Source of the DNA: Actinomycetospora sp.
Lineage (GTDB): Bacteria; Actinomycetota; Actinomycetes; Mycobacteriales; Pseudonocardiaceae
DNA length: 44,024 bases
Reading direction: 5' to 3'
Assembly: GCA_029266415.1 (NCBI GenBank)
Contig: JAQSWW010000029.1
Location: 1 to 44,024, forward strand
In this document: positions 13,825-32,092 of the stretch, in pieces
Layout: every line of letters starts with the position of its first letter
How positions within the stretch are numbered: position 1 is the stretch's first letter
Notes under the pieces: model-generated
Told to the model about the DNA's origin: nothing
The model's input: only the letters and a program-made list of their open reading frames with translations
The model's database searches: none
Position numbers and translations under genes: made by a program

Positions 13825-15612
13825 ATGGCCAACGTGGTGCCGGTGGACGAGTTCGCCACGGGCGAGTGGTACCCGGGGTTCAAGCCCGAGCACTTCGAGA
13901 TGCCGTACATCGTGGACGGGGCGAGCCCGTTCCGGCCCGGCGACGAGCAGGGCTTCTGGTTCCTCGACTTCCACTGGTCGCGCGGGCTGACCCCGCTGGC
14001 GGCGACGCTGTGGAGCGGCGACGGGTACTGCTGGGGCACCCAGCACGCCGCCGAGTCCCTGCCGCTGCCGCCCGGGCGCGGGATCACGGCCCGGTTCGCC
14101 GGCACCCACCTCTACGGCTGCGCCCTGCCCGAGACCGATCCCCGCGAGATCGGCGCCCGCGCCAACCGCATCGCGACCAACCTGCCCCATTTCCTGCACA
14201 ACTACCGCTCGATCTGGGACGCCGGCCGCGACGAGCTCGAGGCCACCTGGCAGTACTTCCGCGGCGTCGACTTCGCCGGCACCCCCGACCTCACCGGCCT
14301 CCTCGGCCAGGCGCGGCGGTACCACAAGCGCTCGATGGAGATCCACTTCGGCGTCATGTACCCGATGCTGGCCAACTTCCTCGGCTTCTACGGCGCCTGC
14401 GCCGACATGGGGATCGACCCGGGCGACATCGGCAAGTTCCTCCAGGGCGAGGACACCAAGATCATGGAGACCGACCGCGAGCTCTACCGGCTCGCGATGC
14501 GGGCGCGCGCCGCCGGGCTCGCCGACGTCTTCGAGACCCACGAGCCCCACGAGCTGCGCGCCGCGCTCAGGCGCCACGGCGGCGCCGCCTCGACCTGGCT
14601 CACCGAGTTCGACGACTTCCTGCAGGTCTACGGCTGGCGCCAGGAAGCCACCTGCGACGTCGGCGTCCCGAGCTGGATCGAGGACAACACGATCCCGCTC
14701 GGCCTGGTGAAGACGTTCCTCAAGAAGGACGACGCCCACGACTTCGAGGCCGCCTCCCGCAACGCGCTCGCCGAGCGCGCGGAGGCGATCGAGAACGCGC
14801 GGTCGGGGCTGACGCGCGAGGAGCAGGCCGTCTTCGACGCCGGCCTGCAGTCCAACCAGGAGGCCAACTTCCCCTGGTGGCAGGACGACCACAACTACTA
14901 CATCGACCTCAAGGTCATGCTGCCGCTGCGGTGGGGGTGCCAGGAGCTGGCGCGGCGCGAGGGCGCCGACCACCAGGACGACATGCTCTACCTGTTCTGG
15001 CCCGAGCTCCTGGACGTGGCGAGCGGCCGCGCGCCCTACTCCGGCGAGCTGCGGAGCCTCGTGGGCGAGCGCCGGCAGTACTTCGACCACTGGCGCGCCA
15101 AGCGCAGCGAGATGCCCAAGGTGCTCGGCACGATCCCCGAGGCGGTCGAGGACCCGGTCCTCATCGAGATCTTCGGGCTGAACCCGGGCTCGATCAAGGC
15201 CGTGCAGAACCCGGACGCCGCGAAGCAGACGGTGATGAAGGGCGTCCCGGCCGCCAAGGGCACCGCGCGCGGCATCGCCCGCGTGCTGCAGTCCTCCGAC
15301 GACCTGCACCGCCTCGAGCCCGGCTCGATCCTGGTCTGCGAGTCGACGTCGCCGAACTGGACGCCCGCCTTCGGCAAGATCGCCGGCGCCGTCTGCGACG
15401 GGGGCGGCATGCTCTCCCACGCCGCGATCGTCGGGCGCGAGTACGGCGTCCCCACCGTCACCGCCGTCGGCGTCGCCACGCTCTCGATCGGCGACGGCGA
15501 CGAGATCGAGGTCGACGGCTCCACGGGCACCGTCACGATCCTCACGAAGTCCACCACCACTGCGGACACGACGGCGGACACCGCGGCGGCCCCCGCGGGG
15601 GTCGCCGGGTGA
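13825..15612 (+). CDS. Dikinase phosphohistidine subunit (phenylphosphate synthase alpha-like)
   Basis: 595 aa. The C-terminal part is a PEP-utilising swivelling domain whose phosphorylatable residue is His532 (GGGMLSHAAIVG), preceded by a GVPAAKGTARGIARVL strand. Residues 1-400 are a substrate domain with MetSer and aromatic-rich stretches such as GFWFLDFHWSRGLTPLA. Split dikinases of this shape are known from phenylphosphate synthase (about 70 and 40 kDa subunits) and the phosphotransferases that activate hydroxyacetophenones. The family moves the beta phosphate of ATP through His to a phenolic hydroxyl. Strong GAGGAGG site before the ATG. It is followed by its ATP-grasp partner. The exact phenol cannot be read from sequence. 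The C-terminal 20 residues are a Thr/Ala-rich tail. Confidence 0.8.
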   Translation: MANVVPVDEFATGEWYPGFKPEHFEMPYIVDGASPFRPGDEQGFWFLDFHWSRGLTPLAATLWSGDGYCWGTQHAAESLPLPPGRGITARFAGTHLYGCALPETDPREIGARANRIATNLPHFLHNYRSIWDAGRDELEATWQYFRGVDFAGTPDLTGLLGQARRYHKRSMEIHFGVMYPMLANFLGFYGACADMGIDPGDIGKFLQGEDTKIMETDRELYRLAMRARAAGLADVFETHEPHELRAALRRHGGAASTWLTEFDDFLQVYGWRQEATCDVGVPSWIEDNTIPLGLVKTFLKKDDAHDFEAASRNALAERAEAIENARSGLTREEQAVFDAGLQSNQEANFPWWQDDHNYYIDLKVMLPLRWGCQELARREGADHQDDMLYLFWPELLDVASGRAPYSGELRSLVGERRQYFDHWRAKRSEMPKVLGTIPEAVEDPVLIEIFGLNPGSIKAVQNPDAAKQTVMKGVPAAKGTARGIARVLQSSDDLHRLEPGSILVCESTSPNWTPAFGKIAGAVCDGGGMLSHAAIVGREYGVPTVTAVGVATLSIGDGDEIEVDGSTGTVTILTKSTTTADTTADTAAAPAGVAG

Positions 15613-15632
15613 CCGCCGCCCCGGAGGTAGCC

Positions 15633-16772
15633 ATGACCCTCGCCGGACCGACCGACACCACCGACCCCGCCGACGGCACGGACGCCGTGCACAGCTGCGA
15701 GGCCGTCGTCTGGCTCGACGAGGTCGACCCCGAGCGGGCGATCCGCGCCGGCGGCTCGAAGATGGGCCGGCTCGCGGAGCTGTTGCGCTCGGGGGTGCAG
15801 GTCCCGCAGGGCTTCGCCGTGACCGTCGACGCCTACGCGCGGCACTGCCGCGAGTCGGGGCTCGACGACCGCATCGACGCGGTGATCATGCGGCTCGGCG
15901 GGTCGCCGGACGACGCGGCGGTGGAGGGGGCGTCGGCGGAAATCCGTGCGATGTTCCGCGAGACGCCGGTCTCGGAGCACCTCACGAGGCGGCTGACCGA
16001 GGCCTACGAGGAGCTGTGCCTGCGCTGCGTCGACGTCAACGTGCCGGTGGCGGTGCGCTCGTCGGCCACCGGCGAGGACGCTGCCGACGCGTCGTTCGCC
16101 GGCATCTTCGACACCTACCTCGGGGTCTCGGGCATCGACCGCGTGCTCGACGCCGTGCGCAACTGCTGGGGCTCGCTGTTCACCGCCCGCGCGCTGGCCT
16201 ACCGGCTGCGCCAGGGCATCAGCCACCACGCGATGCCGATCGCCGTCGGGGTCATCGAGCTGATCCACGCCCGGGCGTCCGGCGTGGCGTTCTCGGTGCA
16301 CCCGGTGACCGGCAAGGCCGACCGCATCGTCATCGAGACCAGCTGGGGCTGGGGCGAGGCGATCGTCCAGGGCCTCGTCGACCCCGACCACGTGGAGATC
16401 GGCAAGTCCGACGGCCGCGTCCTCAAATACGACGTCGCGCACAAGCGGATCGTCTCGGCGTTCGACTTCGCGGTCGGCGCGGTCACCGAGATCGACATGC
16501 CGGCCAAGCTCGCCGACCGGCAGGTGCTCGACACCGAGCAGATCGAGGCGATCGCGTCGGCGGTGCGGTCGATCGAGGACCACTACGGCCACCCCGTGGA
16601 CGTGGAGTGGGTGATCAGCCGGCACCGGCGCCCCGGCGACCCGGTCTGCATCGTGCAGACCCGCCCGGTGACGGTGACCGCGGCGCCCGAGGAGGCGGCC
16701 CCGGCGGCCTACGACCCGGTGGCCCTGGCCCAGAAGTACCTGTTCTCCGGCCGGCCGATCCCCGGCCGGTAG
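15633..16772 (+). CDS. Dikinase ATP-grasp subunit (PEP synthase N-terminal domain-like)
   Basis: 379 aa. This is the ATP/AMP-binding half of PEP synthase as a separate protein: AGGSKMGRLAELLRSGVQVP, VAVRSSATGEDAADASFAGI, ASGVAFSVHPVTG, ETSWGWGEAIVQG and DVEWVI are all in family order. It would phosphorylate His532 of the alpha subunit. The ATG at 15633 has GGAGG five bases upstream; an in-frame GTG at 15609 overlaps the alpha stop but lacks its own site. A third, CBS-domain subunit as in Thauera phenylphosphate synthase is absent, as are UbiD-type carboxylase genes, so the product is probably not carboxylated anaerobically. Confidence 0.85.
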   Translation: MTLAGPTDTTDPADGTDAVHSCEAVVWLDEVDPERAIRAGGSKMGRLAELLRSGVQVPQGFAVTVDAYARHCRESGLDDRIDAVIMRLGGSPDDAAVEGASAEIRAMFRETPVSEHLTRRLTEAYEELCLRCVDVNVPVAVRSSATGEDAADASFAGIFDTYLGVSGIDRVLDAVRNCWGSLFTARALAYRLRQGISHHAMPIAVGVIELIHARASGVAFSVHPVTGKADRIVIETSWGWGEAIVQGLVDPDHVEIGKSDGRVLKYDVAHKRIVSAFDFAVGAVTEIDMPAKLADRQVLDTEQIEAIASAVRSIEDHYGHPVDVEWVISRHRRPGDPVCIVQTRPVTVTAAPEEAAPAAYDPVALAQKYLFSGRPIPGR

Positions 16773-16776
16773 CCGT

Positions 16777-18096
16777 GTGACCCCCGACCGCCCAGGCGTG
16801 ACGCCCGGGCGGCGGGGGAACACGCGCTCCGTCGCGCACGACCGGACGGAGGACACCATCAGCTCGTCGGCCGAGACCACCACCGGGACGACCGGCTCGG
16901 GGCAGCGCGGCCAGCGCGGGCTGCGCGGACCCGCCGCGGCCGCCGTCGTCGCGGGCGCGTTCCTCGTCACGATGCTCGGCGCGACCCTGCCGACGCCGCT
17001 CTACCCGATCTACGAACGCGAGCTCGGGTTCGGCGGGGTCATGGTCACGGTGATCTTCGCGGCGTACGCGGTCGGCGTCACCGCGGCGCTGCTGCTGTTC
17101 GGGCGGCTCTCCGACCAGGTCGGACGTCGGGCGGTGCTGCTGCCGGGGCTCGTGCTCGCCGCGGTCTCCAGCGCCGTGTTCCTCGTCCCCGACAGCATCA
17201 CCGCGCTGTTCGTGGGCCGGGTGCTGTCGGGCCTGTCCGCCGGCATCTTCACCGGCACGGCCACCGCGGCCCTGGTCGACATGGCCCCGGAGGGCCGCCA
17301 GAACCGCTACAGCCTGCTCGGCGCCGCGGTGAACATGCTGGGGCTGGGCCTGGGTCCCGTCGTCGCCGGGGCGCTCGCGGAGTACGCCCCGGCGCCGCTG
17401 TACCTGCCCTACCTCGTGCACATCGGGATGGTGCTCGTCGCCGGCGTGGCCGTCTGGATGATCGCCGAGCCGATCGAGACCCCCGAGGGCCCGGTGCGCT
17501 GGCGGCCGCAGACCGTCTCCGTGCCGCCCGAGGTCCGCGGGGTGTTCGTCCGCGCGGCCATCGCCGGGTTCGCGGGGTTCGCCGTGCTGGGGCTCTTCAC
17601 CGCCGTCTCCCCCGCCTTCCTCACCCAGGTGATCGGGCAGCCGGACCACCTCGTCACCGGCCTCGTCGTGTTCACCCTGCTCGGGGCCTCGACGGTCGGG
17701 CAGGTCGGGTCGTCGCGGGTCGGCCTCCGCCCGGCCCTGCTGATCGGCTGCGCCGCCCTCGTGGCCGGCGTGCTCGTCGTCGGCACCGGGCTCGCCCTCG
17801 CGACGCTGTGGGTGCTCGTCGCCGGGGCCGCGGTGGCCGGCCTCGGGCAGGGCATGGGCTTCCGCGCCGGCCTCGGGGCCGTGAACGCCGGCAGTCCGCC
17901 GGAGCGGCGCAGCGAGGTGGCGTCGAGCTTCTTCCTCGTCCTCTACGTCGGCATCTCGCTGCCGGTGATCGGCGAGGGCGTCGCCTCCGCGGCGTTCGGG
18001 CTGGTCACCGCAGGCGTCGTCTTCGCCGGGATCGTCGCGGTGCTGGGCCTCGTCGCCTTCGTCAGCCTGCTGCGGCAGCGCCCAGTCGCCGCGTGA
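16777..18096 (+). CDS. MFS transporter, probably for an aromatic substrate
   Basis: 439 aa by the longest reading. Twelve membrane segments begin near residue 53 (AAAAVVAGAFLVTMLGATLP); the MFS signature between helices 2 and 3 is GRLSDQVGRRAVLL. The N-terminal 50 residues are polar, low-complexity and partly encoded by the hairpin at 16788-16812, so the true start is probably later. The best ribosome site, GGAGG at 16848-16852, sits five bases before an ATC codon at 16858, which would give 23 residues before helix 1. Its position after the dikinase suggests uptake of the compound that enzyme phosphorylates. It converges with the IclR gene, overlapping by 35 bases. Confidence 0.85.
   Translation: MTPDRPGVTPGRRGNTRSVAHDRTEDTISSSAETTTGTTGSGQRGQRGLRGPAAAAVVAGAFLVTMLGATLPTPLYPIYERELGFGGVMVTVIFAAYAVGVTAALLLFGRLSDQVGRRAVLLPGLVLAAVSSAVFLVPDSITALFVGRVLSGLSAGIFTGTATAALVDMAPEGRQNRYSLLGAAVNMLGLGLGPVVAGALAEYAPAPLYLPYLVHIGMVLVAGVAVWMIAEPIETPEGPVRWRPQTVSVPPEVRGVFVRAAIAGFAGFAVLGLFTAVSPAFLTQVIGQPDHLVTGLVVFTLLGASTVGQVGSSRVGLRPALLIGCAALVAGVLVVGTGLALATLWVLVAGAAVAGLGQGMGFRAGLGAVNAGSPPERRSEVASSFFLVLYVGISLPVIGEGVASAAFGLVTAGVVFAGIVAVLGLVAFVSLLRQRPVAA
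16788..16812 (+). terminator. Hairpin after the dikinase operon
   Basis: CCGCCC-A-GGCGT and ACGCC-C-GGGCGG pair into an 11-bp stem with one mismatch and a 1-base loop, 15 bases after the dikinase stop. There is no T run, as is usual at this GC content. It overlaps the start of the longest reading of the MFS gene, which argues that the true MFS start is downstream. Confidence 0.5.
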
Positions 18097-18838
18097 TCAC
18101 CTCGGCGGTGTCGGTGACCAGGGTCGTGTAGCGGCGCAGGGTCGCGGCGGCCGCCCGGTCGACCGGGACCGCCACGCTCACCGCCGCCACCGCCTCGCCG
18201 GCGCCGTCACGGACCAGCGCGCCCACCGACACCACGCCCAGCCGGCTCTCCTCGCGGTTGTCGGCCCAGCCCCGGTCGGCGATCTCGCGCAGGCGCCGGC
18301 GCAGGGTCGCCGGGTCGGCGATCGAGTGCGGGGTCGGGCGCTCGGGTGTCCAGTGCGCGAGCCGCGCGTCGAGCTCCTCGGGCGGCAGCGCGGCGAGCAG
18401 CACCTTGCCCGTGCTCGTCGTCGTCGCCGGCAGCCGCATCCCGACGCGGGCGAAGATCCGCAGGGTGTGGGGGCTCTCCAGCCGCTCCACGTACACCGAG
18501 TCGAGCCCGTCGAGCACCGCGAGCTGCACGGTCTCCCCCGTGGCGTGGCGCAGGCCGGCCATCGCGGGCATCGCCGCCTCGTGCAGGCCGACGTGCGGGG
18601 CGACGCTGGCGCCGAGCTCGTGGACCGCGAGCCCCAGCCGGTAGGTGCCCGCGGGCCCGCGCTCGAGCAGCCGCTCGTCCGCGAGCGTGGCCAGGAGCCG
18701 GTGCACGGTGCTCGTGCCCAGCCCCAGCCGGCGGGCCAGCTCGGCCACGCCCAGCTCGCGGTCGGCGATCGAGAACTCCTTGAGCAGGCGCGCGGCGTTG
18801 CGCACCGAGCCCAGCTCCCAGCTCGGCCGTCCCGCCAT
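18062..18838 (-). CDS. IclR-family transcriptional regulator
   Basis: 258 aa. Winged helix at residues 9-70 (VRNAARLLKEFSIADRELGV, LGLGTSTVHRLLATL) and the effector domain with VYVERLESPHTLRIFARVG, STGKVLLAALP and SVGALVRD. Full family length. It lies between two MFS genes, converging with one and following the other, so it may control aromatic uptake. Leaderless start: TAGCGT (18851-18846, minus), seven bases, ATG; a GGAACG element directly upstream (18855-18860) may be its operator. Confidence 0.9.
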   Translation of the reverse strand: MAGRPSWELGSVRNAARLLKEFSIADRELGVAELARRLGLGTSTVHRLLATLADERLLERGPAGTYRLGLAVHELGASVAPHVGLHEAAMPAMAGLRHATGETVQLAVLDGLDSVYVERLESPHTLRIFARVGMRLPATTTSTGKVLLAALPPEELDARLAHWTPERPTPHSIADPATLRRRLREIADRGWADNREESRLGVVSVGALVRDGAGEAVAAVSVAVPVDRAAAATLRRYTTLVTDTAEVITRRLGAAAAG

Positions 18839-18870
18839 GCGGGACACGCTAACCGGAACGTGCGGCGCCG

Positions 18871-20151
18871 TCAGCGGACCGACGCCAGCTCCCGCCGCAC
18901 CGCCAGCGAGAGCCCCGCGGCCACGACGCACAGCGCGCCCGCCGACCACCACGCGCCGTCGTAGGTGCCGGTGACGTCCCGGATCAGACCGGCGCCGACC
19001 GCCGCGATCGCCGAGCCGATCTGGTGGGCGGCGAACACCCAGCCGAAGACGATGGGCGCGCGGGACCCGAAGCGCTCGCGGCACAGGGCCACGGTCGGCG
19101 GCACCGTGGCGACCCAGTCGAGGCCGTAGAAGACGATGAACGCCCACAGCGGCGGCGCCGCGGTCGGCGCGAGCAGGAACGGCAGGAACGCCAGGGACGC
19201 GCCGCGCAGCACGTAGTAGGCGGCGAGCAGCTTGCGCGGGTCGACGCGGTCGGTGAACCAGCCCGAGGCGATGGTGCCCACGACGTCGAACACGCCGACC
19301 ACCGCCAGCAGCCCGGCCGCGGTGGTGGCGGGCATGCCGTGCTCGTGGGCGGCGGGCACGAAGTGGGTGTTGAGCAGCCCGACCGTCGTCGCCCCGCAGA
19401 TCGCGAACCCGCCGGCGAGCAGCCAGAACGTGCCGGTGCGCGCGGCGTCGCGCAGGACGGTGAGGGTGCGACGGAAGGCGCCGCCGACGACGACCTCCTC
19501 GGGCGGCTCCTCGCCCGGGTCCGCGCCGTGGGCGACGGTGCCGACGTCGGCGGGCCGGTCGCGCAGGAACAGCAGGACCAGCGGCACCACGAGCAGGGCG
19601 CCCGCCGCGATGAGCAGCGACGCGCCCCGCCAGCCCACCGACCCGGCGAGCGAGGCCATCAGCGGGAGGAACACCAGCCCCCCGGCGGCCTGGGCGGCGG
19701 TGAGCACGCCGGAGACGAGCCCGCGCCGGCGCACGAACCACCGCCCGGTGACGACGGCGACGAACGCCAGCGCCATCGACCCCGTACCCACCCCGATGAG
19801 CACGCCCCAGAGCAGGACCAGCTGCCAGACCTCGCCCATGAACACGGTCAGCCCGCTGCCCGCGGCCACGAGCACCAGGGCGATCGACACGACGCGCCGC
19901 ATCCCGAAGCGCTCCATCAGCGCCGCCGCGAAGGGCGACACGACGCCGTAGAGCAGGAGGTTCAGCGACACCGCCGACGAGATCGTCGCCGTCGACCAGC
20001 CGAACTCGGCGTGCAGCGGGTCGATGAACACCCCGGGCGCGGAGCGGAAGCCCGACGCACCGAGGAGGGTCACGAACGCCGTCGCGGCCACCGCCCACGG
20101 CCACGCGGACGTGTGGCGGCGGATCGGGCGCACCGGGGCGGTCTCGGTCAC
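18871..20151 (-). CDS. MFS transporter (OxlT/monocarboxylate-like)
   Basis: 426 aa with twelve predicted membrane segments. Helices 1 (WPWAVAATAFVTLLGASGFR) and 2 carry the oxalate/formate antiporter-type pattern PGVFIDPLHAEFGWSTATIS. A long cytoplasmic loop rich in acidic residues (PGEEPPEEVVV) divides the halves. This subfamily carries carboxylates, including aromatic acids. The downstream IclR gene begins 33 bases after its stop. Divergent from the GlxA-type regulator with 72 bases between starts. Confidence 0.87.
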   Translation of the reverse strand: MTETAPVRPIRRHTSAWPWAVAATAFVTLLGASGFRSAPGVFIDPLHAEFGWSTATISSAVSLNLLLYGVVSPFAAALMERFGMRRVVSIALVLVAAGSGLTVFMGEVWQLVLLWGVLIGVGTGSMALAFVAVVTGRWFVRRRGLVSGVLTAAQAAGGLVFLPLMASLAGSVGWRGASLLIAAGALLVVPLVLLFLRDRPADVGTVAHGADPGEEPPEEVVVGGAFRRTLTVLRDAARTGTFWLLAGGFAICGATTVGLLNTHFVPAAHEHGMPATTAAGLLAVVGVFDVVGTIASGWFTDRVDPRKLLAAYYVLRGASLAFLPFLLAPTAAPPLWAFIVFYGLDWVATVPPTVALCRERFGSRAPIVFGWVFAAHQIGSAIAAVGAGLIRDVTGTYDGAWWSAGALCVVAAGLSLAVRRELASVR

Positions 20152-20223
20152 GAGGGTCGATCATGCGGCGCCGGGACCCGGCAGACCAGTGGCCCGAACG
20201 CCACCTCGTGCAAGAATCCGGCC

Positions 20224-21192
20224 ATGTCCGGCCCTCGCCACGTCGTCGCCGTCCTCGCCCTGCCCGAGGTCATCGGTTTCGACCTGCAGATCCCGCCCCA
20301 GGTCTTCGGCGCCGCCGAGGCCGACGGGCAGCCGCTCTACGACGTCCGCGTCTGCGGGTTCGACGAGCGCGTGCCGACGACGGCCGGGTTCTCGCTCCTG
20401 CTCGAGCACGGTCCGGAGACCCTGGCGGTCGCGGACACCGTCATCGTCCCGGGCACCCGCTTCGCGCCGGCCCGTCGCGAGGGCGTCCTGCCGGCCGACG
20501 TGCAGGCGGCGCTGGACGCCGTCCCGGCCCACGCCCGCTGGCTCTCGATCTGCACCGGGGCGTTCGTGCTCGCCGCCGCCGGGCGCCTCGCCGGCCACCG
20601 CGCCACCACCCACTGGGCCCACGCCGACGCCCTGCGCCGCCTGCACCCGGACCTCGAGGTCGACGAGTCCGTGCTGTTCGTCGACGACGGCGACGTCGCG
20701 ACCTCCGCGGGCCTCGCCGCCGGCCTGGACCTCTGCCTGCACGTGCTGCGCCGCGACCACGGCGCCGAAGTGGCCAACGCCGTCGCCCGCCACCTCGTCG
20801 TGGCACCGTGGCGCGACGGCGGTCAGGCGCAGTTCATCGACCGCCCCCTGCCGGCCGACCGCGAGGGCTCCACGGGGGCGGTGCGGGCGTGGGCGCTGGA
20901 GCACCTCGACGCCGAGCTCGACGTCGCCGGGCTCGCGGCGCGGGTGTCGATGAGCGTGCGGACCTTCACCCGGCGCTTCCGCGCGGAGACGGGCACCTCG
21001 CCGCACGCGTGGCTGGTCGCCCAGCGCGTCGCCCGCGCGCGCCACCTGCTCGAGGGCAGCGACCTGCCCGTCGACCGGGTGGCCGCGGCCGCCGGCCTCG
21101 GGACCGCCGCCTCCCTGCGGGCCCACCTCGCCGACGACGTGGGCCTCTCCCCGCTGGCCTACCGGCGGCGCTTCCGTCGCACGGGCGCCTGA
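20224..21192 (+). CDS. GlxA-type regulator (DJ-1/PfpI domain plus AraC helix-turn-helix)
   Basis: 322 aa. The N-terminal DJ-1/PfpI domain (residues 5-175) has the nucleophile elbow SICTGAFVLAAAG and ATTHWAHADALR. The C-terminal AraC domain (about 215-320) has LAARVSMSVRTFTRRFRAET and VDRVAAAAGLGTAASLRAH. Such proteins are transcription activators that sense small molecules or amino-acid derivatives. Leaderless start: AAGAAT (20212-20217), six bases, ATG. Divergent from the MFS gene, which it may control. Confidence 0.9.
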   Translation: MSGPRHVVAVLALPEVIGFDLQIPPQVFGAAEADGQPLYDVRVCGFDERVPTTAGFSLLLEHGPETLAVADTVIVPGTRFAPARREGVLPADVQAALDAVPAHARWLSICTGAFVLAAAGRLAGHRATTHWAHADALRRLHPDLEVDESVLFVDDGDVATSAGLAAGLDLCLHVLRRDHGAEVANAVARHLVVAPWRDGGQAQFIDRPLPADREGSTGAVRAWALEHLDAELDVAGLAARVSMSVRTFTRRFRAETGTSPHAWLVAQRVARARHLLEGSDLPVDRVAAAAGLGTAASLRAHLADDVGLSPLAYRRRFRRTGA

Positions 21193-22769: not shown

Positions 22770-24119
22770 GTGCTGACCGCCGAGCAGAACGAGGAACTCA
22801 CCGCCGTCGAGGCCGGCACGCCGATGGGCGAGGTGCTGCGCCGCTACTGGTACCCGGTCGCGTTCACCCGCGAGCTCGAGGAGTTCCCCGTCAAGCGCGT
22901 CGAGCTGCTCGGCGACTTCTTCGCGCTGTGGCGCTCGCCGTCGGGGAAGTACGGGATCATCCCGGAGCCCTGCCCCCACCGGAAGGCCTCGATGGCCTAC
23001 GGCGTCGTCGAGGGCGACGGGCTGCGCTGCCCGTACCACGGGTGGAAGTTCGACACCGACGGCGCGTGCACCGACCAGCCGGCCGAGAAGGACAACACCA
23101 ACTTCCAGGAGCGGGTGCGCGCCACCGCCGGGAAGGTCGAGGAGCTCGGCGGGCTGGTGTGGGCCTACGTCGGGCCCGACCCGGCCCCGCTGCTCCCGCG
23201 CTTCGACGTCTACGTCATGGACGGGTTCCGCGACATCGGCTGGGCGGACATCCCCTGCAACTACGTGCAGGTCATGGAGAACGCCGTCGACCCGCACCAC
23301 GTCGAGCACCTGCACGGGCGCTACTTCGAGTTCATCGGCCGGCACGAGGGCTTCGAGGCGCCGGCGTCGTTCGGCAAGAAGCACCAGCGCATCGGCTTCG
23401 ACGCCTTCGAGTGGGGCATCATCAAGCGCCGCGTGCTGGCCGGGGCGAGCGAGGACAACGACGACTGGAAGGTCGGGCACCCCCTGGTCTTCCCCTACAA
23501 CATGCGCGTCGGTGGCGGCGGCATCCACCAGATGCAGATCCGGGTGCCGATCAACCGCACCACCACGCGGTTCATGCTCTACACCGTGCACGCCCCGGAG
23601 GGCTACGAGCCGGTGGCGCAGCAGGCGATCCCCGACTACGAGATCCCCGTGTTCGACGAGCGCGGGAACCACGTCGTCGACTACGTCGAGGGCCAGGACA
23701 TCATGGCCTGGGTGACCCAGGGCCCGATCACCGACCGCACCACCGAGCACCTGGGCCGCTCGGACATCGGCGTGGCCATGCTGCGCAAGATGTTCCGGCA
23801 GGCGATGCAGGCCGTCGCCAAGGGCGAGGACCCGCTGGGCACGATCCGCGAGCCGCACGAGCGCATCGACCTGCCCTGCGAGAAGGACAAGTTCCACGCG
23901 GGCGCCGCGGAGTTCGCCCTGGACTTCTGCGCCATGGGCTCCACGCGCCACTCCCCGGCGCTCGAGACCATCCGGTCGGTCCACATCTCCGCGGCCGACC
24001 GGGTCGCCGCGGACAAGGACGCCGGACGCCCGTCGTTCACCCCCGAGGGCGGCATCGGCACCGCCACCCTCGCGCCCGGCACCGACGCGCAGGTGGACTC
24101 GGGGCTGATCCCCCGGTGA
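22770..24119 (+). CDS. Rieske non-heme iron oxygenase, alpha (oxygenase) subunit
   Basis: 449 aa. The Rieske [2Fe-2S] ligands are Cys68, His70, Cys87 and His90 (PCPHRKASM, RCPYHGWKF). The mononuclear iron motif is NAVDPHHVEHLH. Length and the early Rieske domain fit the phthalate/vanillate-type alpha-only oxygenases, which hydroxylate or demethylate aromatic acids and phenolic ethers. It may convert an aromatic substrate to the catechol or aminophenol cleaved by the dioxygenases here; the substrate is not known. No small (beta) subunit or reductase gene is in the window; a Rieske ferredoxin is at 25410-25760 on the other strand. Confidence 0.88.
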   Translation: MLTAEQNEELTAVEAGTPMGEVLRRYWYPVAFTRELEEFPVKRVELLGDFFALWRSPSGKYGIIPEPCPHRKASMAYGVVEGDGLRCPYHGWKFDTDGACTDQPAEKDNTNFQERVRATAGKVEELGGLVWAYVGPDPAPLLPRFDVYVMDGFRDIGWADIPCNYVQVMENAVDPHHVEHLHGRYFEFIGRHEGFEAPASFGKKHQRIGFDAFEWGIIKRRVLAGASEDNDDWKVGHPLVFPYNMRVGGGGIHQMQIRVPINRTTTRFMLYTVHAPEGYEPVAQQAIPDYEIPVFDERGNHVVDYVEGQDIMAWVTQGPITDRTTEHLGRSDIGVAMLRKMFRQAMQAVAKGEDPLGTIREPHERIDLPCEKDKFHAGAAEFALDFCAMGSTRHSPALETIRSVHISAADRVAADKDAGRPSFTPEGGIGTATLAPGTDAQVDSGLIPR

Positions 24120-24355
24120 CCGTGCCCGACGGCTCACCCGGAGCGCGGGTCGACCGCCGCTTCGCCGCCGACGTCGAAGCCCACCGCCGCGACGCCCCGC
24201 GCTTCTGCCCGGCGTGCGCGCGGGACCTGGGGCTCGCGAACGAGTTCTGGGAGGGCGACCAGCGCCGCTTCTACTGCTGGTGCGCGACCTGCGACTGGAC
24301 CGGCGAGATCACCACGACCGGCGGGACGGCGCTGGGCCACGAACCCGATCACTGA
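24116..24355 (+). CDS. Small zinc-ribbon-like protein coupled to the Rieske oxygenase
   Basis: 79 aa, starting with a GTG that overlaps the oxygenase stop (GTGA). Two Cys pairs, FCPACARDL and YCWCATCDWTGE, 30 residues apart, suggest a structural zinc or iron site. I do not recognise a named family. Its tight coupling suggests a role with the oxygenase, for instance assembly or electron transfer, but this is conjecture. Confidence 0.65.
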   Translation: MTVPDGSPGARVDRRFAADVEAHRRDAPRFCPACARDLGLANEFWEGDQRRFYCWCATCDWTGEITTTGGTALGHEPDH

Positions 24356-25409: not shown

Positions 25410-25760
25410 TCACTCCCGCGCGTGGGCGCGCAGGCGCTCCGACCACGACATCGGCCGCGGGGGCTCGCCGACGTCGGCGTAGGTCACGCCGTCGATCTCG
25501 CGGACCGGGTGGACGCCCAGGACGTGCTGCGGGGAGGTGTCGCACGCGCCGGTGTCGAGGTCGAAGCGGTACCAGTGCCAGGGGCAGACCAGGACCCGGT
25601 CACCGTCGTCGCCACGCACCCAGCCCTCCTCGAGCGGCCCCCCGTTGTGCGGGCACCGCGCGTCGACCACCCGCAGGCCGTCGGGCAGCGCGAGCACGAC
25701 GAAGCGCCGGCCGTCGTCGCTCTCGACGACGCCCGGCCCCTCGACGCGCACCAGGGTCAT
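25410..25760 (-). CDS. Rieske [2Fe-2S] ferredoxin
   Basis: 116 aa. Ligands Cys36, His38, Cys59 and His62 ([25 protein letters not shown]), with no other domain: an electron carrier. It may serve the Rieske oxygenase at 22770 or reactivate the iron of catechol 2,3-dioxygenases, the task of XylT-type ferredoxins, although those are plant-type proteins. The ATG overlaps the stop of the tautomerase gene (ATGA), so it is cotranscribed with meta-pathway genes. Confidence 0.88.
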
Positions 25761-25960
25761 CGCTTCCCGGACGCCCGGAGCTCGGCCAGCGACTCCCCGC
25801 CGACGAACCAGTGCTCGGGCTCGCACTCGGTGACGACGACACGCACGTTCCCGGCGGGCGCCCCGACCGCGCGCGAGACGGCGGCGGTCACCTCCTCCCC
25901 CAGCGCGGCGAGCTGCTCGGGGCTGCGGCCCCGGGCGAGGGTGATCTGCACGAGCGGCAC
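25757..25960 (-). CDS. 4-oxalocrotonate tautomerase
   Basis: 67 aa, the classic single-unit size, starting with Met-Pro so that Pro-1 is the catalytic base (MPLVQITLARGRSPEQLA). It isomerises 2-hydroxymuconate to 2-oxo-3-hexenedioate. GTG start with a GGAGG site about 11 bases upstream. It belongs to the same gene block as the decarboxylase that uses its product; the gap of 55 bases holds repeats and may contain an extra promoter. Confidence 0.9.
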   Translation of the reverse strand: MPLVQITLARGRSPEQLAALGEEVTAAVSRAVGAPAGNVRVVVTECEPEHWFVGGESLAELRASGKR

Positions 25961-25979
25961 GGTCGGCCTCCGTTGCTAT

Positions 25980-26019
25980 GTGAGCGGAATTCGCGGCTAT
26001 CACCGGGAAGATCGCTCAC
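25980..26019. promoter_or_regulatory. Inverted repeat between tautomerase and decarboxylase genes
   Basis: GTGAGCG (25980-25986) and CGCTCAC (26013-26019) are perfect 7-bp arms 26 bases apart. The interval contains GCGGAATTCGCGG, reminiscent of the GGAA/TTCC motif at the other catabolic promoters. It may be an internal operator or a hairpin. Confidence 0.35.
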
Positions 26020-26777
26020 GTACAGGCGAGCTCGACCGTCCCGAGGCGGTCGATCGAGACGGTGACGACGTCGCCGGGGGCGACGGGGGTGGCGGCGGTG
26101 AGGCCGCCGGAGAGCACGACCTCGCCGGCGGCCAGGCCCTCGCCCGACGCGGCGAGGCGGCGCACCAGCCAGGCGACCGCCGCCGCCGGGTGACCCAGCG
26201 ACGCCGCGCCCGAGGCCGTGGCCACGAGCTCGCCGTTCTTCTCCAGCAGCACGCCGACCAGCCGCACGTCGATCCCCGCCACGGGCACCGGGGTGCCGAC
26301 GACGAACCGGGCGGCCGAGGTGTTGTCGGCGACGACGTCGGCCATCGTGAAGCGGTAGTCCCGGAACCGGGAGTCGAGGATCTCGATGCCCACCGCGAGC
26401 CCCGACGTCGCGGACAGCACGTCGGCGGCGGTCACGTACTCGCCCGCGAGGTGGCGGCCCAGCACGAAGACGATCTCGGGCTCGGCGCGGGGCTGGATCA
26501 GCTCGCCGGTGCGCAGCGGCGCGCCCAGGTCCAGCGCGGCGGCACCGGGCAGGAACCCGAACACCGGGTCGGACACCCCGACCTGGGCCTGCTTGGCCCG
26601 CGACGTCACGCCCAGCTTCCAGCCGACCCGGGGCCCGGCCTGCTCGCGCAGCACGCGCTGCACGGCGTAGCCGGTCTCGAGGTCGAGGTCGGACACGTCG
26701 TCGGTGAGCGGGTCGATCGCGGTCCGTCCGGCGACGGCCTTGGTCAGCCGCGCCGCGAGTTCCTGCACGTCGGCCAT
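26016..26777 (-). CDS. 4-oxalocrotonate decarboxylase (2-oxo-3-hexenedioate decarboxylase)
   Basis: 253 aa, FAH/hydratase fold. It is assigned to the decarboxylase rather than the hydratase branch by GWKLGVTSRAKQAQVGV, GFLPG and the run LDSRFRDYRFTMADVVADNT, which parallels DmpH/XylI. The acidic metal ligands are in PRAEPEIVFVLG. It turns 2-oxo-3-hexenedioate into 2-oxopent-4-enoate plus CO2 and usually forms a complex with the hydratase. One base separates it from the hydratase gene. Confidence 0.88.
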   Translation of the reverse strand: MADVQELAARLTKAVAGRTAIDPLTDDVSDLDLETGYAVQRVLREQAGPRVGWKLGVTSRAKQAQVGVSDPVFGFLPGAAALDLGAPLRTGELIQPRAEPEIVFVLGRHLAGEYVTAADVLSATSGLAVGIEILDSRFRDYRFTMADVVADNTSAARFVVGTPVPVAGIDVRLVGVLLEKNGELVATASGAASLGHPAAAVAWLVRRLAASGEGLAAGEVVLSGGLTAATPVAPGDVVTVSIDRLGTVELACT

Positions 26778-26778
26778 G

Positions 26779-27564
26779 TCAGCCCTCCACCCTGATCGTG
26801 ACCGGACCGAGCCGGTCGAACTCGGCCCGGAACACGTCGCCCGCGGCCAGCGGCACGGCGGCGTGCAGCGCGCCCGTCATGATCAGGTGACCGGGCTCGA
26901 GGGCCACCCCGACCTCGCCGAGCACGTTGGCCAGCCAGGCCACGACGGCCAGCGGGTCGCCGAGCGCGGCCGCCCCGGCCCCGGTGTCGACGAGCTCACC
27001 GTTGCGCGTGAACGTCATCCCGATCAGCCGGGTGTCGAGCCCGGCCAGCGGGACGAGCCGCGAGGACACCGCGACCGCGCCGTTGGACGCCATGTCCGCG
27101 ACGGTGTCGGCGAGCTTGATGCGCCAGTCGGCGATGCGGGAGTCGACGATCTCCATCGCGGCCGCGACCCCGGCGACCGCCGGCGCGACGTCGGTGGGCG
27201 TGACGCCCGGGCCCTGCAGCCGCGACCCGAGGACGAACACGATCTCGGCCTCGACCTTGGGCGCGATGAAGCGCGACAGCGGGATCGCGTCGCCGTCGCG
27301 GTAGACCGTCGACGCGAGCACCGGGCCGTGGTCGGGGGTGTCGATGCCGATCATCTTCTGCATCGCCGCCGACGTGACGCCGACCTTGTGCCCCACGACC
27401 CGGTCTCCGTCGGCGAGCAGCAGCGGCACCAGCTCCTGCTGGATCGCGTAGCCGTCGGCCATGTCCAGGTCGGGCTCGGCGTCGGTGAAGGGCGCGATCG
27501 GCACGCGGGTGCGGCGCGCCTCGTACAGCGCCCGCGCCTTCGCGGCCGCGTCGGTGACGGGCAC
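26779..27564 (-). CDS. mhpD: 2-oxopent-4-enoate hydratase
   Basis: 261 aa, FAH/hydratase fold. Family features: GHKVGVTSAAMQKMIGIDTP, a PKVEAEIVFVLG metal site and DSRIADWRIKLADTVADMAS, as in MhpD/DmpE. It adds water to 2-oxopent-4-enoate to give 4-hydroxy-2-oxovalerate, the substrate of the aldolase encoded at 4101-5135. The GTG start overlaps the stop region of the upstream IclR gene without a gap. Confidence 0.9.
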   Translation of the reverse strand: MPVTDAAAKARALYEARRTRVPIAPFTDAEPDLDMADGYAIQQELVPLLLADGDRVVGHKVGVTSAAMQKMIGIDTPDHGPVLASTVYRDGDAIPLSRFIAPKVEAEIVFVLGSRLQGPGVTPTDVAPAVAGVAAAMEIVDSRIADWRIKLADTVADMASNGAVAVSSRLVPLAGLDTRLIGMTFTRNGELVDTGAGAAALGDPLAVVAWLANVLGEVGVALEPGHLIMTGALHAAVPLAAGDVFRAEFDRLGPVTIRVEG

Positions 27565-29019: not shown

Positions 29020-29063
29020 CGCGGAGTCAAGGAAGCTCGGCCCGCTCGAGAGGGAGCCGCCGC

Positions 29064-29978
29064 ATGGGGATCCTGCGCCTGGCCCACGTCGACGTCCGCA
29101 CGCCCGACCTGGACCTGTCGACCGCGTACTACACCGAGGTGATGGGCCTGCAGCAGGTGGCGCGCACCGAGGACACCGTCTACCTCAAGTGCTGGGACGA
29201 GGAGGACCACCACTCGCTGCGGATGCGCTACAACCCGCGGACGGGCCTGGACTCCTTCACGTTCCGCGTCGAGCAGGAGGACGACCTCGCCGAGTTCGAG
29301 AAGAAGGTCGAGGCCTACGGCTGCCCGACGTCCCGGGTCAGCCGCGGCGGCGCGATCGGCCAGGGCGAGTCGATCCGCTTCGAGGTGCCGTCCGGCCAGA
29401 TCATGGAGCTGGTCTGGGACATCGAGAAGACCGGCAACATCCTGGGCAAGCGCAACCCCTCGCCCACCCCGCCGCCCGACCTGCCCGGTATCGCGCCGCC
29501 GCGCATGGACCACATGCTGGTCAACGCCGAGGAGGTCGCCGAGGCCGCGAGCTTCTTCATCGACGTGCTCGGCATGCGGATGACCGAGCAGGTGCTCGAC
29601 GGCAACGGCCACCAGCTCGGCGTGTGGCTCGCGGGCAACACCCACTCGCCGCACGACATCGCCATCGTCAACGGCCCGAACGGCGCGCTGCACCACTGGG
29701 CGTACTGGCTCGACGACTGGGACCACGTGCGCAAGGCCGCCGACACGCTCGCCTACAACGGCGTCCAGATCGACCAGGGCCCCACGCGCCACGGCGTCAC
29801 CCGCGGCAACACCATCTACTTCTTCGACCCGCTCGGCATCCGCAACGAGGTCTTCACCGGCGGCTACTGGGTCGACCCCGACACCGAGATCCTCACCTGG
29901 ACCGAGGACAACTTCGGCAAGGGCCTCTTCTACTACGAGAACGTCGTCAGCCAGCGGTTCCTGCGGATGCACACGTAA
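29064..29978 (+). CDS. Catechol 2,3-dioxygenase (type I, vicinal oxygen chelate fold), copy 1
   Basis: 304 aa, two VOC modules. Iron ligands by alignment to XylE-type enzymes are His150 (PPRMDHMLV), His211 (GALHHWAYW) and Glu262 (IRNEVFTGGYW). It inserts O2 beside the catechol hydroxyls (meta cleavage) to give 2-hydroxymuconic semialdehyde. It is unrelated in fold to the LigB-type dioxygenase at 411-2206. Followed 12 bases later by a second copy. The start has a GGGAGCCGCC leader; a GTG upstream would lengthen it, but TAGCGT at 29014 implies a leader of about 40 bases. Confidence 0.92.
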   Translation: MGILRLAHVDVRTPDLDLSTAYYTEVMGLQQVARTEDTVYLKCWDEEDHHSLRMRYNPRTGLDSFTFRVEQEDDLAEFEKKVEAYGCPTSRVSRGGAIGQGESIRFEVPSGQIMELVWDIEKTGNILGKRNPSPTPPPDLPGIAPPRMDHMLVNAEEVAEAASFFIDVLGMRMTEQVLDGNGHQLGVWLAGNTHSPHDIAIVNGPNGALHHWAYWLDDWDHVRKAADTLAYNGVQIDQGPTRHGVTRGNTIYFFDPLGIRNEVFTGGYWVDPDTEILTWTEDNFGKGLFYYENVVSQRFLRMHT

Positions 29979-29990
29979 GGGGAGACGACC

Positions 29991-30929
29991 GTGGCCACCA
30001 CCTCCGACCGGATCATCCGGCTGCAGCACGTCGAGGTCCGGGTCCCCGACCTCGAGCTCGCCACCGCCTACTACACCGAGGTCCTGGGCCTGATCGAGAC
30101 CGCCCGCGACGAGCGCGACGGCGCCCCGCGGGTGTTCCTCAAGTGCTGGGACGAGCGCGAGCACCACTCGGTGATCCTGCGCGAGGCCCCCACCTACGGC
30201 CTCGACCACATGTCGTTCAAGCTCAACGAGGCCTCGGACCTCGACCACTTCACCGCCAAGCTCGAGGCCGCCGGCGTGCCGGTGAAGCGCTATGCCGCCC
30301 GCGAGCTCGGCCCCGGCTGGGGCGAGGCGATCCGCTTCGACTCCCCCTCGGGCCACCTGGTCGAGCTGACGCACGGCACCGAGCGCATCGGCAACATGCT
30401 GCCGCGCACGAACCCGCCGCCCCGGCCGCAGGACCTCATCGGGATCGCTCCCCCGCGCCTGGACCACCTGTTCGTCATGGCCGAGGACGTCGAGGCGTTC
30501 ACCGCGTTCTTCTGCGAGCTGCTCGAGTTCCGGCTCACCGAGCAGATCCTCGCCAACGACGGCCACCAGCTCGCGACGTTCCTCGAGCACTCGCACACCC
30601 CGCACGACATCGCGGTCATCACCGGCCCGAACGGGGCGCTGCACCACTTCGCGTTCTGGCTCGACGACTGGAACGGCATCCGCGACGCCGCCGACACGCT
30701 CGCCTACCACGGGGTGAACATCGACGTGGCGCCCACGCGGCACGGCGTCACCCGGGGGTACACGACGTACTTCTTCGACCCCGCGGGCAACCGCAACGAG
30801 CTCTTCACCGGCGGCTACTGGGTCGATCCCGACTTCGAGCCGATCACCTGGACCGAGGAGGAGATGGGGCGCGCCATCTTCTACTACCACCGCCAGGTCA
30901 ACGAGCGCTTCTTCACGGTGCACTCGTGA
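29991..30929 (+). CDS. Catechol 2,3-dioxygenase (type I, VOC fold), copy 2
   Basis: 312 aa. Iron ligands His159 (PPRLDHLFV), His219 (GALHHFAFW) and Glu270 (NRNELFTGGYW). It aligns with copy 1 throughout (HVDVRTPDLDLSTAYYTEV and HVEVRVPDLELATAYYTEV) but has a 9-residue insertion near residue 40 and many substrate-pocket differences, so it is an old duplication, probably with a different preferred catechol. GTG with GGGGAG eight bases upstream. Its stop overlaps the GTG of the phosphatase gene. Confidence 0.92.
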   Translation: MATTSDRIIRLQHVEVRVPDLELATAYYTEVLGLIETARDERDGAPRVFLKCWDEREHHSVILREAPTYGLDHMSFKLNEASDLDHFTAKLEAAGVPVKRYAARELGPGWGEAIRFDSPSGHLVELTHGTERIGNMLPRTNPPPRPQDLIGIAPPRLDHLFVMAEDVEAFTAFFCELLEFRLTEQILANDGHQLATFLEHSHTPHDIAVITGPNGALHHFAFWLDDWNGIRDAADTLAYHGVNIDVAPTRHGVTRGYTTYFFDPAGNRNELFTGGYWVDPDFEPITWTEEEMGRAIFYYHRQVNERFFTVHS

Positions 30930-32092
30930 CGGGCATCGACCAGGGTCCGGCTCCGCTGCGCTCCGCGTCCCTCGACGACCGGCCCGACGCGCGCGCGGTC
31001 CACCGGTACGAGGCCCCGGACTACCTGTCGCGCTACCGCGCGCGCCGCGGGGACGCAAAGGCGCCGGAGTCCGACCGGGCGAGCGCCGCGGCCGCGCCGG
31101 CGGCGCCGGAGGCCCCGCCCGAGGGCAGCCAGAAGACCGATCACGGGGGCCTGCCCCTGTACCTGCGCCGCTTCCGCGACCGCGGTGGGGTCGGCGCGAC
31201 CGGGACCGTCGAGTACGACGGGAAGCACTTCACCCCGGAGCTGGCCGAGGCCAGCCGGGGCAAGGAGATCGCCGCCCCGATCGAGCGCCGCGCGTCGGAG
31301 AAGATCGTCTGCGAGATCTCGATCATCCGGCACGGCATCACCCAGGGCTACTCCACCGACGCCGGCCTCACCCCGATGGGCGGCTGGCAGGCCCACCGGC
31401 GCGGCCACGAGCTGGCGCGCCGGTTCGACGCCGGCGACCGGGTGCGGCTGGTCTGCGCGGACACCAACCGGGCGCGCCAGACCGCCGACCAGCTCTACCG
31501 CGGGGTCACCGACGGGCTGCAGATGTGGGGCATCGACGCCGAGATCACCGAGAAGGAGCCGATCCCCGAGCTGCGCAACTTCGGGGTCTGGACCCCGGAC
31601 GGCCTGCGCGACGTCACCTCGGCGTTCCGCCAGTACCAGGCCACCAACGAGACCCTCGAGCGCCTGGCCGTCGGCGACCGCCCGCGCTGGCTCGTCGAGA
31701 TCGACCGCTTCTACCGCACGCAGCTGGGCGGGGCGGACCCGATCCAGGAGTGGCTGACGGTCCCGATGATGTACTTCGAGCCGCCGGCGATGTGCGTGCG
31801 CCGCTTCTGGCGCGGGTTCCACCGGCTGATCACCGAGTCGACGCAGCCCGACGGCTCGATCAGCCACCGCCGGATCCTCGCCGCGACCCACTCCGGGCCG
31901 ATGCGCGCGTTCGCCACCTGGGCGCACGGCTACGACCCGGGCGAGCCGCTGAACACCGAGGAGATCCGCGTGAAGGTGCGCGAGGGCGCCCGCAGCGCCT
32001 TCGTCTCCTACCGCAACCGGGTCACCGAGGTGAACGTCCCGCCGCCCGACGAGTTCCCGAGATGGGAAGACGCGGGAGGCCTGCCGTCGTGA
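30926..32092 (+). CDS. Histidine phosphatase (phosphoglycerate mutase superfamily) with extended N-terminus
   Basis: 388 aa. The catalytic core begins with IIRHGITQGY (Arg135, nucleophile His136); CADTNRARQTADQL carries the second Arg and ATHSGPM the second His. About 130 residues precede the core: an Arg/Tyr-rich segment (APDYLSRYRARRG, residues 30-42), an Ala/Pro/Glu linker (45-68) and another basic amphipathic stretch (LPLYLRRFRDRGG). The N-terminus could be a shell-targeting or partner-binding peptide. The gene overlaps the dioxygenase stop by GTGA. A phosphatase in a catechol-cleavage operon is unusual; it may remove the phosphate added by the dikinase at 13825-16772 (inference). Confidence 0.82.
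   Translation: MTGIDQGPAPLRSASLDDRPDARAVHRYEAPDYLSRYRARRGDAKAPESDRASAAAAPAAPEAPPEGSQKTDHGGLPLYLRRFRDRGGVGATGTVEYDGKHFTPELAEASRGKEIAAPIERRASEKIVCEISIIRHGITQGYSTDAGLTPMGGWQAHRRGHELARRFDAGDRVRLVCADTNRARQTADQLYRGVTDGLQMWGIDAEITEKEPIPELRNFGVWTPDGLRDVTSAFRQYQATNETLERLAVGDRPRWLVEIDRFYRTQLGGADPIQEWLTVPMMYFEPPAMCVRRFWRGFHRLITESTQPDGSISHRRILAATHSGPMRAFATWAHGYDPGEPLNTEEIRVKVREGARSAFVSYRNRVTEVNVPPPDEFPRWEDAGGLPS

Follow-up and report, generated by a model that had tools for sequence, protein, structure and literature searches.

Two putative phosphorylative modules in an aromatic-catabolism island of Actinomycetospora: a split dikinase with Rieske and meta-cleavage genes, and a dikinase-HAD pair in an ARO microcompartment operon

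We analyzed a stretch of 44,024 nucleotides of DNA from Actinomycetospora, a soil actinobacterium (the window), which is the entire contig C10 (JAQSWW010000029.1) of genome G000 (4.73 Mb in 306 contigs, 84.5% complete). We propose, with a probability of roughly 0.55, that the aromatic island on this contig contains two phosphorylative modules, the first of which would consist of phosphorylation, Rieske oxygenation, dephosphorylation, and meta cleavage. Module 1 (13013-34616) comprises a two-subunit dikinase (DikA and DikB), a Rieske oxygenase, two catechol 2,3-dioxygenases (C23O), and a histidine phosphatase (HisP), and module 2 is the dikinase-HAD pair of an adjoining operon for a bacterial microcompartment (BMC) of the ARO type. 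The gene content, the linkage, the intact catalytic motifs, and the conservation described below were observed directly. The names DikA, DikB, and HisP were coined in this analysis; G numbers other than G000 denote sampled genomes, L numbers fetched loci, and C numbers contigs.

The gene models in the window (n = 48) are codon-score predictions; 42 of the predicted proteins were scanned against Pfam, two others are BMC genes, and four small ones lay outside the scan. The genes named in the original prediction were indeed present where it placed them, with the dikinase at 13825-16772, the Rieske gene at 22770-24119, the C23Os and overlapping phosphatase at 29064-32092, and the BMC genes at the left end. 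The island extends beyond the interval 13825-32092 to which that prediction was confined, since the ARO operon runs into contig C221 and two groups of lower meta genes are found in the window (3158-5539; 25757-27564). The features of module 1 and of the lower pathway are as follows.

3158-5539, plus strand: acetaldehyde dehydrogenase, 4-hydroxy-2-oxovalerate aldolase, and tautomerase
13013-13678, minus strand: HAD-family hydrolase (PF00702), second phosphatase candidate, divergent from DikA
13825-15612, plus strand: DikA, large dikinase subunit (595 aa) with a swivel domain and a possible substrate domain like that of rifampin phosphotransferase (RPH), catalytic His532
15633-16772, plus strand: DikB, small dikinase subunit (379 aa), ATP-grasp (PF01326, PPDK_N, E 4e-95)
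16798-18096, plus strand: MFS transporter (PF07690), 25 bases past DikB
22770-24119, plus strand: Rieske oxygenase alpha subunit, phthalate-dioxygenase-like (PF00355 and PF19301)
24116-24355, plus strand: small Cys-rich protein, overlapping the Rieske gene by 4 bases, no Pfam match
25410-25760, minus strand: Rieske ferredoxin (PF00355)
25757-25960, minus strand: 4-oxalocrotonate-type tautomerase (PF01361)
26016-26777, minus strand: 4-oxalocrotonate decarboxylase-like protein (DmpH; best NCBIfam TIGR03218, below cut-off)
26779-27564, minus strand: 2-oxopent-4-enoate hydratase-like protein (DmpE; best NCBIfam TIGR03220, below cut-off)
29064-29978, plus strand: first C23O (TIGR03211, 355.8 bits; cut-off 320.2)
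29991-30929, plus strand: second C23O (TIGR03211, 362.7 bits; cut-off 320.2)
30926-32092 (start predicted), plus strand: HisP, histidine phosphatase with an N-terminal extension (PF00300)
32089-32904, plus strand: IclR regulator (PF01614 and PF09339), overlapping HisP by 4 bases
33453-34616, plus strand: MetE-like protein (PF01717)

The view that the dikinase, HisP, the Rieske oxygenase, and C23O form one pathway is supported by their co-occurrence in relatives, which we addressed in two overlapping samples of 100 genomes from the family and 298 from the order. DikA orthologs (E <= 1e-200) were found in six family genomes (G000, G042, G075, G098, G037, and G039), and HisP (E <= 1e-15) in eight, namely all six of these together with G057, where it lies behind an ARO-type dikinase, and G041, where some 190 kb separate it from a carboxylase-type dikinase; many weaker DikA matches, mostly to the swivel domain alone, were left aside. 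Thus, the predicted association of dikinase and phosphatase held in 6/6 family genomes with DikA, as it did in G190, where both belong to a single gene run. Counted by genus, DikA was present in 3/46 and HisP in 5/46 genera of the family, with all three DikA genera shared (p 7e-4), and the co-occurrence among genera of the order gave a p of 0.009; both values ignore shared descent, and four of the six family genomes with DikA are congeners. In the order sample, the Rieske oxygenase (E <= 1e-70) was found in five genomes (G000, G042, G161, G190, and G121), four of which carry a dikinase at the same locus, a DikA-like protein (E <= 1e-40) in 16, and HisP (E <= 1e-15) in three.

A syntenic arrangement of the dikinase, the Rieske gene, lower-pathway genes, and C23O-C23O-HisP is shared by G075, G098, A. 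cinnamomea, A. callitridis, and A. lutea; the fetched stretch of G042 stops within the first C23O, with HisP just beyond. DikA, DikB, a MetE-like gene, both C23Os, and HisP are consecutive in G037, which also carries, in the opposite direction, another dikinase with the Rieske and small genes behind it, and in G039 the Rieske, HisP, HAD, and MetE-like genes are divergent from DikAB. In G190, which belongs to another family, C23O-C23O-HisP-DikB-DikA-Rieske-small and then HAD lie on one strand beside lower-pathway genes, and its dikinase falls in the canonical group of our tree. The locus of G161 combines the Rieske gene and DikAB with a HAD gene and a reductase gene. Wherever HisP was seen linked to C23O, a dikinase was present in the same locus.

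The catalytic motifs of the oxygenase and the phosphatase were conserved. The Rieske and mononuclear-iron motifs were intact in 8/8 aligned rows, and the best solved relatives are the phthalate-dioxygenase-type structures 7fjl, which we take to be phthalate dioxygenase, and 7fhr, labelled putative phthalate 4,5-dioxygenase. Enzymes of this type take anionic aromatics. If the Rieske oxygenase acts on aryl phosphates, phosphorylation would supply simple phenols with a temporary anionic group and so make them acceptable to an oxygenase of the phthalate type; this would bear on why such pathways begin with phosphorylation, a question posed in PMC12167813. The small Cys-rich gene lies immediately 3' of the Rieske gene in 12/12 loci examined, including that of G121; its product has two Cys-x-x-Cys-like pairs and is possibly a metal-ribbon partner of the oxygenase. 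A P450 gene lies between the Rieske gene and the ferredoxin in G075 (L045:4703-5890), with a similar gene in G098; no P450 was recognised among the window genes.

HisP, the gene of which overlaps the second C23O by 4 bases, scored 33.6 bits against the His_Phos_1 profile (cut-off 21.7), the best stretch spanning only 68 of the 194 profile positions. Its Arg135-His136-Gly137, Arg182, and His322 were invariant in 11/11 aligned homologs and its fold matches were of the histidine-phosphatase/phosphoglycerate-mutase type, so that the Arg-His-Gly motif, the second catalytic His, and the fold together identify a branch 1 histidine phosphatase. The N-terminal extension (residues ~31-86, predicted disordered) of C23O-linked HisP contains two copies of the motif P-x-Y-L-x-[RKH]-[YFH]-x-x-R, which was found in eight of 484 predicted proteins scanned, all eight of them HisP of the C23O-linked type; these include HisP of G075, G098, and G190, and G075 and G098 are without an ARO dioxygenase match. 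The motif may be a docking or targeting element. A HAD gene adjoins DikA in G000, G042, G075, G098, and G037 and lies within about 3 kb of the dikinase in G039, G161, and G190.

On the basis of these sequences, we infer the substrate, the order of steps, the regiochemistry, and any meeting of the two modules as follows. DikAB would transfer a phosphate of ATP via the swivel histidine to a phenolic substrate to give an aryl phosphate, and the Rieske oxygenase would then either hydroxylate the ring or O-demethylate the anionic aryl phosphate, either of which could give a catechol monophosphate. HisP, perhaps helped by HAD, would release a catechol, which C23O would open, and the DmpH- and DmpE-like proteins, the aldolase, and acetaldehyde dehydrogenase would lead to pyruvate and acetyl-CoA; the dehydrogenase and the aldolase exceed their NCBIfam cut-offs, and the tautomerase at 3158-5539 is over the Pfam cut-off and under the NCBIfam ones. 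In module 2, the dikinase and its HAD, usually encoded immediately behind the shell genes, would activate the precursor of the ARO pathway.

Several observations weigh against this reading, in addition to the divergence of DikA, a carboxyltransferase gene elsewhere in G000, and irregularities among the ARO loci, which are given below. By the gene calls, the dikinase, Rieske, and C23O genes of the window belong to different transcription units, and regulators and transporters are encoded between these. HisP was absent at E <= 1e-15 from G161. G121 is a counterexample, with the Rieske gene (54%), the small protein, a reductase, a LigB-type dioxygenase, and lower meta genes and no DikA match at E <= 1e-40. 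No hydroxymuconic semialdehyde dehydrogenase was found in the window, and the best relative in G000 is 45% identical; those of A. cinnamomea, G161, and G075 are 79-81% identical to that of G037. No assayed close homolog of HisP or of the HADs was available here, and the counts are dominated by few lineages. In addition, HAD is missing at DikA in 6/6 loci of named ARO-bearing Actinomycetospora that cover the site (L064, L065, L066, L147, L149, and L152), and HisP is thus a steadier partner of module 1 than HAD. These HAD-less strains carry a second HAD gene (HAD2) in the ARO operon, and G000 has both, so either HAD might replace the other, one of them serving both modules.

The separate transcription units and the dikinase-free Rieske-meta cluster of G121 would also suit an arrangement of mere neighbours, in which the dikinase serves one aromatic pathway and the Rieske oxygenase and C23O another within the same catabolic island, as would G056, which has a related dikinase (39%) and no recognised Rieske or C23O gene in the fetched stretches. 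We consider such an arrangement unlikely: the genes are contiguous in G190 and G037, and HisP is rare in both samples (8/100 and 3/298) and, when linked to C23O, was always seen with a dikinase. A further alternative is that phosphorylation traps or detoxifies the phenolic substrate, which is held as the phosphate until the phosphatase re-releases it and the oxygenase uses the free form. Scavenging by HpeHI has been proposed in PMC12167813, and the MFS transporter behind DikB, possibly for substrate uptake, would agree with such a role; an ortholog lies behind DikB in A. callitridis and none does so in A. cinnamomea or A. lutea. The phosphatase gene, however, overlaps the ring-cleavage gene and neither the dikinase nor the Rieske gene; late dephosphorylation therefore fits, and we regard the trap as improbable.

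The subunit structure of DikAB is that of a split dikinase. DikB starts 20 bases past the end of DikA, and the ATP-grasp (PF01326) and swivel/substrate domains are on separate adjacent genes, as they also are in the dikinase of the ARO operon (DikB2 and DikA2); the sole Pfam domain of DikA is PF00391 (PEP-utilizers mobile domain, E 4.7e-23). His532 lies in a Gly-Gly-X-X-X-His swivel motif and was invariant in 24/24 aligned homologs. A PEP synthase relative of central metabolism, or an antibiotic-inactivating RPH-like phosphotransferase, appeared very unlikely. DikB scores best against PEP synthase ATP-grasp domains, and an AlphaFold model of DikA, of low confidence (mean pLDDT only 55.7) and used for this match alone, gave rifampin phosphotransferase in all six of its top fold matches (Foldseek best match 5fbt, E 9.7e-15). 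Against these similarities, the position two before the swivel His, which is a regulatory Thr in PEP synthases (PMC12167813), is Leu or Met in 24/24 rows, and close orthologs lie amid aromatic-catabolism genes in every locus fetched. The Pfam scan recognised no PEP/pyruvate-binding domain in either subunit; the role of a PEP synthase was rejected on this absence, and DikAB is predicted not to be a pyruvate-type dikinase, in line with the original prediction.

That prediction also named phenol as the substrate, and here it went too far: the two-subunit dikinase stands, and a phenolic substrate was read from the genomic context. DikA is 26-29% identical to fourteen large subunits of the canonical group, which falls short of the approximately 45% that characterised large subunits share with one another (PMC12167813), the groups compared here being named by genomic context and not by characterised sequences. 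In a tree of 32 rows, DikA and seven others formed a divergent clade on a long branch, and a phenolic substrate is thus less sure for DikA than for the canonical group; the split of this clade from the other 24 rows joins long branches and is unsure according to a warning of the tree tool. A plasmid search returned three distant dikinases (27-28% identity). DikAB probably works like a small-molecule dikinase, with a phenol as the substrate suggested by the neighbouring genes.

The known route of phosphorylation and carboxylation (Pps/UbiD or Hpe type), with a carboxylase encoded elsewhere in the genome, has hardly any probability left and was rejected for module 1, given no UbiD match in G000 (84.5% complete), no carboxylase near module 1, and seven genomes with the module (G042, G075, G098, G037, G039, G190, and G368) that lack an Hpe-type carboxyltransferase at E <= 1e-40 out of ten searched. 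The flanks were likewise free of a known carboxylase pathway, as originally predicted: no carboxylase family was recognised among the 42 scanned proteins, and tblastn (E <= 1e-6) with biotin carboxylase and Hpe-type carboxyltransferase came up empty both for the window and for 19 stretches around module 1 of relatives, with the source locus L118 detected as the positive control. UbiD was absent from 7/10 genomes searched, including the one-contig G042, and in the other three (G075, G161, and G190) lies on contigs other than that of module 1. In favour of this route, an Hpe-type carboxyltransferase (81%) is encoded in G000 on contig C91, another in A. cinnamomea (G367, C22), both off the module 1 contig, and G161 has a weaker partial match. 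This C91 carboxyltransferase seems to be served by a separate dikinase, a dikinase-like match about 3 kb away (both genes within C91 ~14459-20450), and G000 probably has an Hpe pathway in addition.

Module 1 is best read as a variant of the Cre/Hpe logic. HpeHI, CreHI, and PpsAB are split two-component dikinases (PMC12167813). The Hpe system of Rhodococcus rhodochrous GD02 (PMC9618137, PMC12167813) resembles module 1 in its split ATP-grasp and swivel/substrate dikinase, its aerobic setting, and its later phosphatase, but proceeds by carboxylation with the biotin-dependent HpeCBA, a NagD-like HpeD, and an end in beta-ketoadipate in place of the Rieske oxygenase, HisP/HAD, and meta cleavage. PpsAB, a phenylphosphate synthase (PMC12167813), has the same split dikinase but is anaerobic and followed by carboxylation, as is the two-subunit, ATP-dependent phenylphosphoamidate synthase for aniline of Desulfatiglans anilini (PMC7500099), which indicates that an arylamine too can be activated. 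CreHI of Corynebacterium glutamicum shares the aerobic setting with phosphorylation first, opening the catabolism of 4-methylphenol (4-cresol) (PMC12167813, PMC9618137). In our tree, the Rieske-linked dikinases of G190 and G037 are sister to dikinases beside P450-like genes (support 100/99). After phosphorylation, the Cre pathway reportedly continues with P450 oxidation of the methyl group and then dephosphorylation, and it is not known to include a Rieske oxygenase or C23O. The claim that the route would be new therefore survived in part: phosphorylation followed by oxidation is known in principle from CreHI, and no open-licence PMC paper was found in which such a dikinase is linked either with Rieske oxygenation and meta cleavage or with a microcompartment.

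Dikinases elsewhere accompany Hpe-type carboxylases (for example L118, annotated Rhizobium leguminosarum), molybdenum hydroxylases, or P450-like genes; thus, the dikinase appears to be a plug-in activation step before several chemistries. A dikinase lies beside a molybdenum hydroxylase in G118 (subunit confirmed by Pfam), G161, G004, and annotated Thermomicrobium roseum. The 3-hydroxypyridine dehydrogenase HpdA is said to follow a similar phosphorylation-first logic, with dikinase subunits beside a molybdenum hydroxylase; its oxidase and ring differ, and it is a parallel to module 1, not a relative. Dikinase genes also adjoin molybdenum hydroxylase subunits in L116, L117, L123, and L164, and the actinobacterial loci of this kind contain genes whose appearance would suit a role in hydroxypyridine/maleamate degradation. 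Two-subunit dikinases were also seen within seemingly polyketide-type biosynthetic clusters (L119 and L126).

The ARO operon carries a dikinase of its own. Its features in the window and in C221 (L056) are as follows.

2-399, minus strand: two BMC-H shell genes (PF00936, over cut-off); the operon continues in C221
411-1229, minus strand: ARO ring-cleavage dioxygenase alpha subunit (PF02900)
1226-2206, minus strand: ARO ring-cleavage dioxygenase beta subunit (PF02900)
2315-3136, plus strand: IclR regulator of the ARO block (PF01614 and PF09339)
L056:6565-7272: HAD2, in the ARO operon

C221 and C10 share 22 identical bases, at the right end of the former and the left end of the latter, and the BMC gene split at this break is whole in named Actinomycetospora with the same gene order contiguous. 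The operon reads ARO beta, alpha, BMC-H, BMC-H, BMC-P, DikB2, DikA2, HAD2, RidA-like, further genes, and HisP2, with the dioxygenase adjoining two BMC-H genes and one BMC-P gene as in an ARO microcompartment; the beta subunit shares 94-95% identity with its counterparts in A. chibensis, A. callitridis, and an uncultured member of the genus, which makes an uncultured Actinomycetospora the likeliest source of the window. Further genes of the Actinomycetospora ARO block (C221, 3526-6054) code for an FMN-dependent dehydrogenase, an NTF2-like protein, and an alpha/beta hydrolase. A contig scan with the ARO beta subunit, of which the first 80 candidate stretches gave 32 loci and which is not a census, returned DikA2 in 16 loci, HyuB in 13, and both in none. 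The dikinase type comprised eight Actinomycetospora, Pseudonocardia spinosispora, P. asaccharolytica, P. acaciae, two Kibdelosporangium, and three other metagenome-assembled genomes (MAGs), and the HyuB type ten Micromonospora or Verrucosispora and, more distantly, one Streptomyces, Microtetraspora, and Nocardioides, so that both counts are biased by lineage (10/13 and 8/16 from the leading genera); in L086, L089, and L091, the identity of the HyuB match is only 29-33%. The three loci with neither gene are L083, the contig of which ends past BMC-P, L093, a fragment, and L085, an Amycolatopsis. DikB2 and HAD2 were each found in 15/16 dikinase-type loci, HisP within the fetched stretch in 7/16, and the aldehyde dehydrogenase AldDh in 5/16; AldDh was recognised among neither the C10 nor the C221 genes, and the best G000 match to AldDh of G037 (45%) is on C156. 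Nine ARO dikinases formed one clade (support 100/100), and DikA2 is 43-50% identical to most canonical groups, with G269 as an outlier.

The original prediction that module 1 could feed the ARO microcompartment was not supported by these comparisons. In G042, G075, and G098, which lack ARO, the DUF4383 and acetaldehyde dehydrogenase flanks are only 168-185 bases apart, whereas A. chibensis has about 11.4 kb (from IclR1 to a small gene before DUF4383) between the same flanks; the ARO block is one unit with clean presence or absence, and this type of BMC brings its own dikinase. These three congeners without ARO retain module 1, which can thus occur without the BMC, and the idea that module 1 specifically serves to supply the ARO shell was rejected. 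ARO dioxygenase was found in 3/100 family genomes, all three with a dikinase in the locus. Seven named ARO-bearing Actinomycetospora, including A. cinnamomea DSM 45771 and A. callitridis DSM 101857, which carry dikinase-type ARO, all have DikA (88-92%) on the contig of DikA2, 11.6-15.6 kb from it (the eighth locus of the genus, a MAG, was outside this search), and among twelve other ARO genomes searched, a close DikA (71%) was found in one, L070, which is the G037 genome.

For ARO, the upper pathway and natural substrate are stated to be unknown (PMC10470539), no upper-pathway enzyme being identifiable in the locus except HyuB as a possible candidate; the main text of that paper does not mention a kinase, a dikinase, a phosphatase, or phosphorylation. 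ARO of Micromonospora rosaria (PMC10470539) shares the dioxygenase, two BMC-H, one BMC-P, and IclR with the Pseudonocardiales type but has HyuB and AldDh and no dikinase, whereas the latter has a dikinase and HAD and no HyuB. Our best reading is thus that the ARO microcompartment has a subtype with a dikinase, not recognised so far, and the dikinase-HAD pair, present in half of the 32 loci returned, is likely the activating step of the upper pathway in Actinomycetospora and other Pseudonocardiales and a concrete, assayable candidate. This reading has to accommodate that no oxygenase was recognised beside the ARO dikinase in C221, that the dikinase of P. spinosispora (L071) lies upstream of the dioxygenase, unlike the usual place behind the shell genes, and that L087 is cut inside DikA2, so that DikB2 is not visible and HAD is beyond view. 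More tentatively, and with the odds somewhat against it, ARO may exist in two forms, with HyuAB or with dikinase and HAD, in which a phosphorylated phenol or arylamine would be a charged, trapped precursor of 2-aminophenol or catechol for the shell enzymes, with a second dikinase feeding the aryl-phosphate Rieske route.

MetE-like proteins were recurrently seen near dikinases (33453-34616; L050:17578-18743; L154; L155), and a MetE-like gene lies near module 1 in G037, where its reading frame is broken near the 3' end, in G039, in G098, and in three named Actinomycetospora. The window copy retains the His-x-Cys motif, and we would guess at methyl transfer or O-demethylation chemistry. A. chibensis has a third dikinase type beside an inositol-monophosphatase-family protein and MetE-like genes, and G056 is similar. 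A further BMC-domain gene was found in G000 on contig C38 (20526-20753; L001), apart from the ARO locus and with neighbours resembling genes for an alcohol dehydrogenase and a regulator of the PucR type; it perhaps belongs to a second compartment. One large gene was observed at the right end of the window.

41803-44022: large IcmF-like, B12-dependent mutase that includes a MeaB-type GTPase domain; the gene is cut off by the end of the contig

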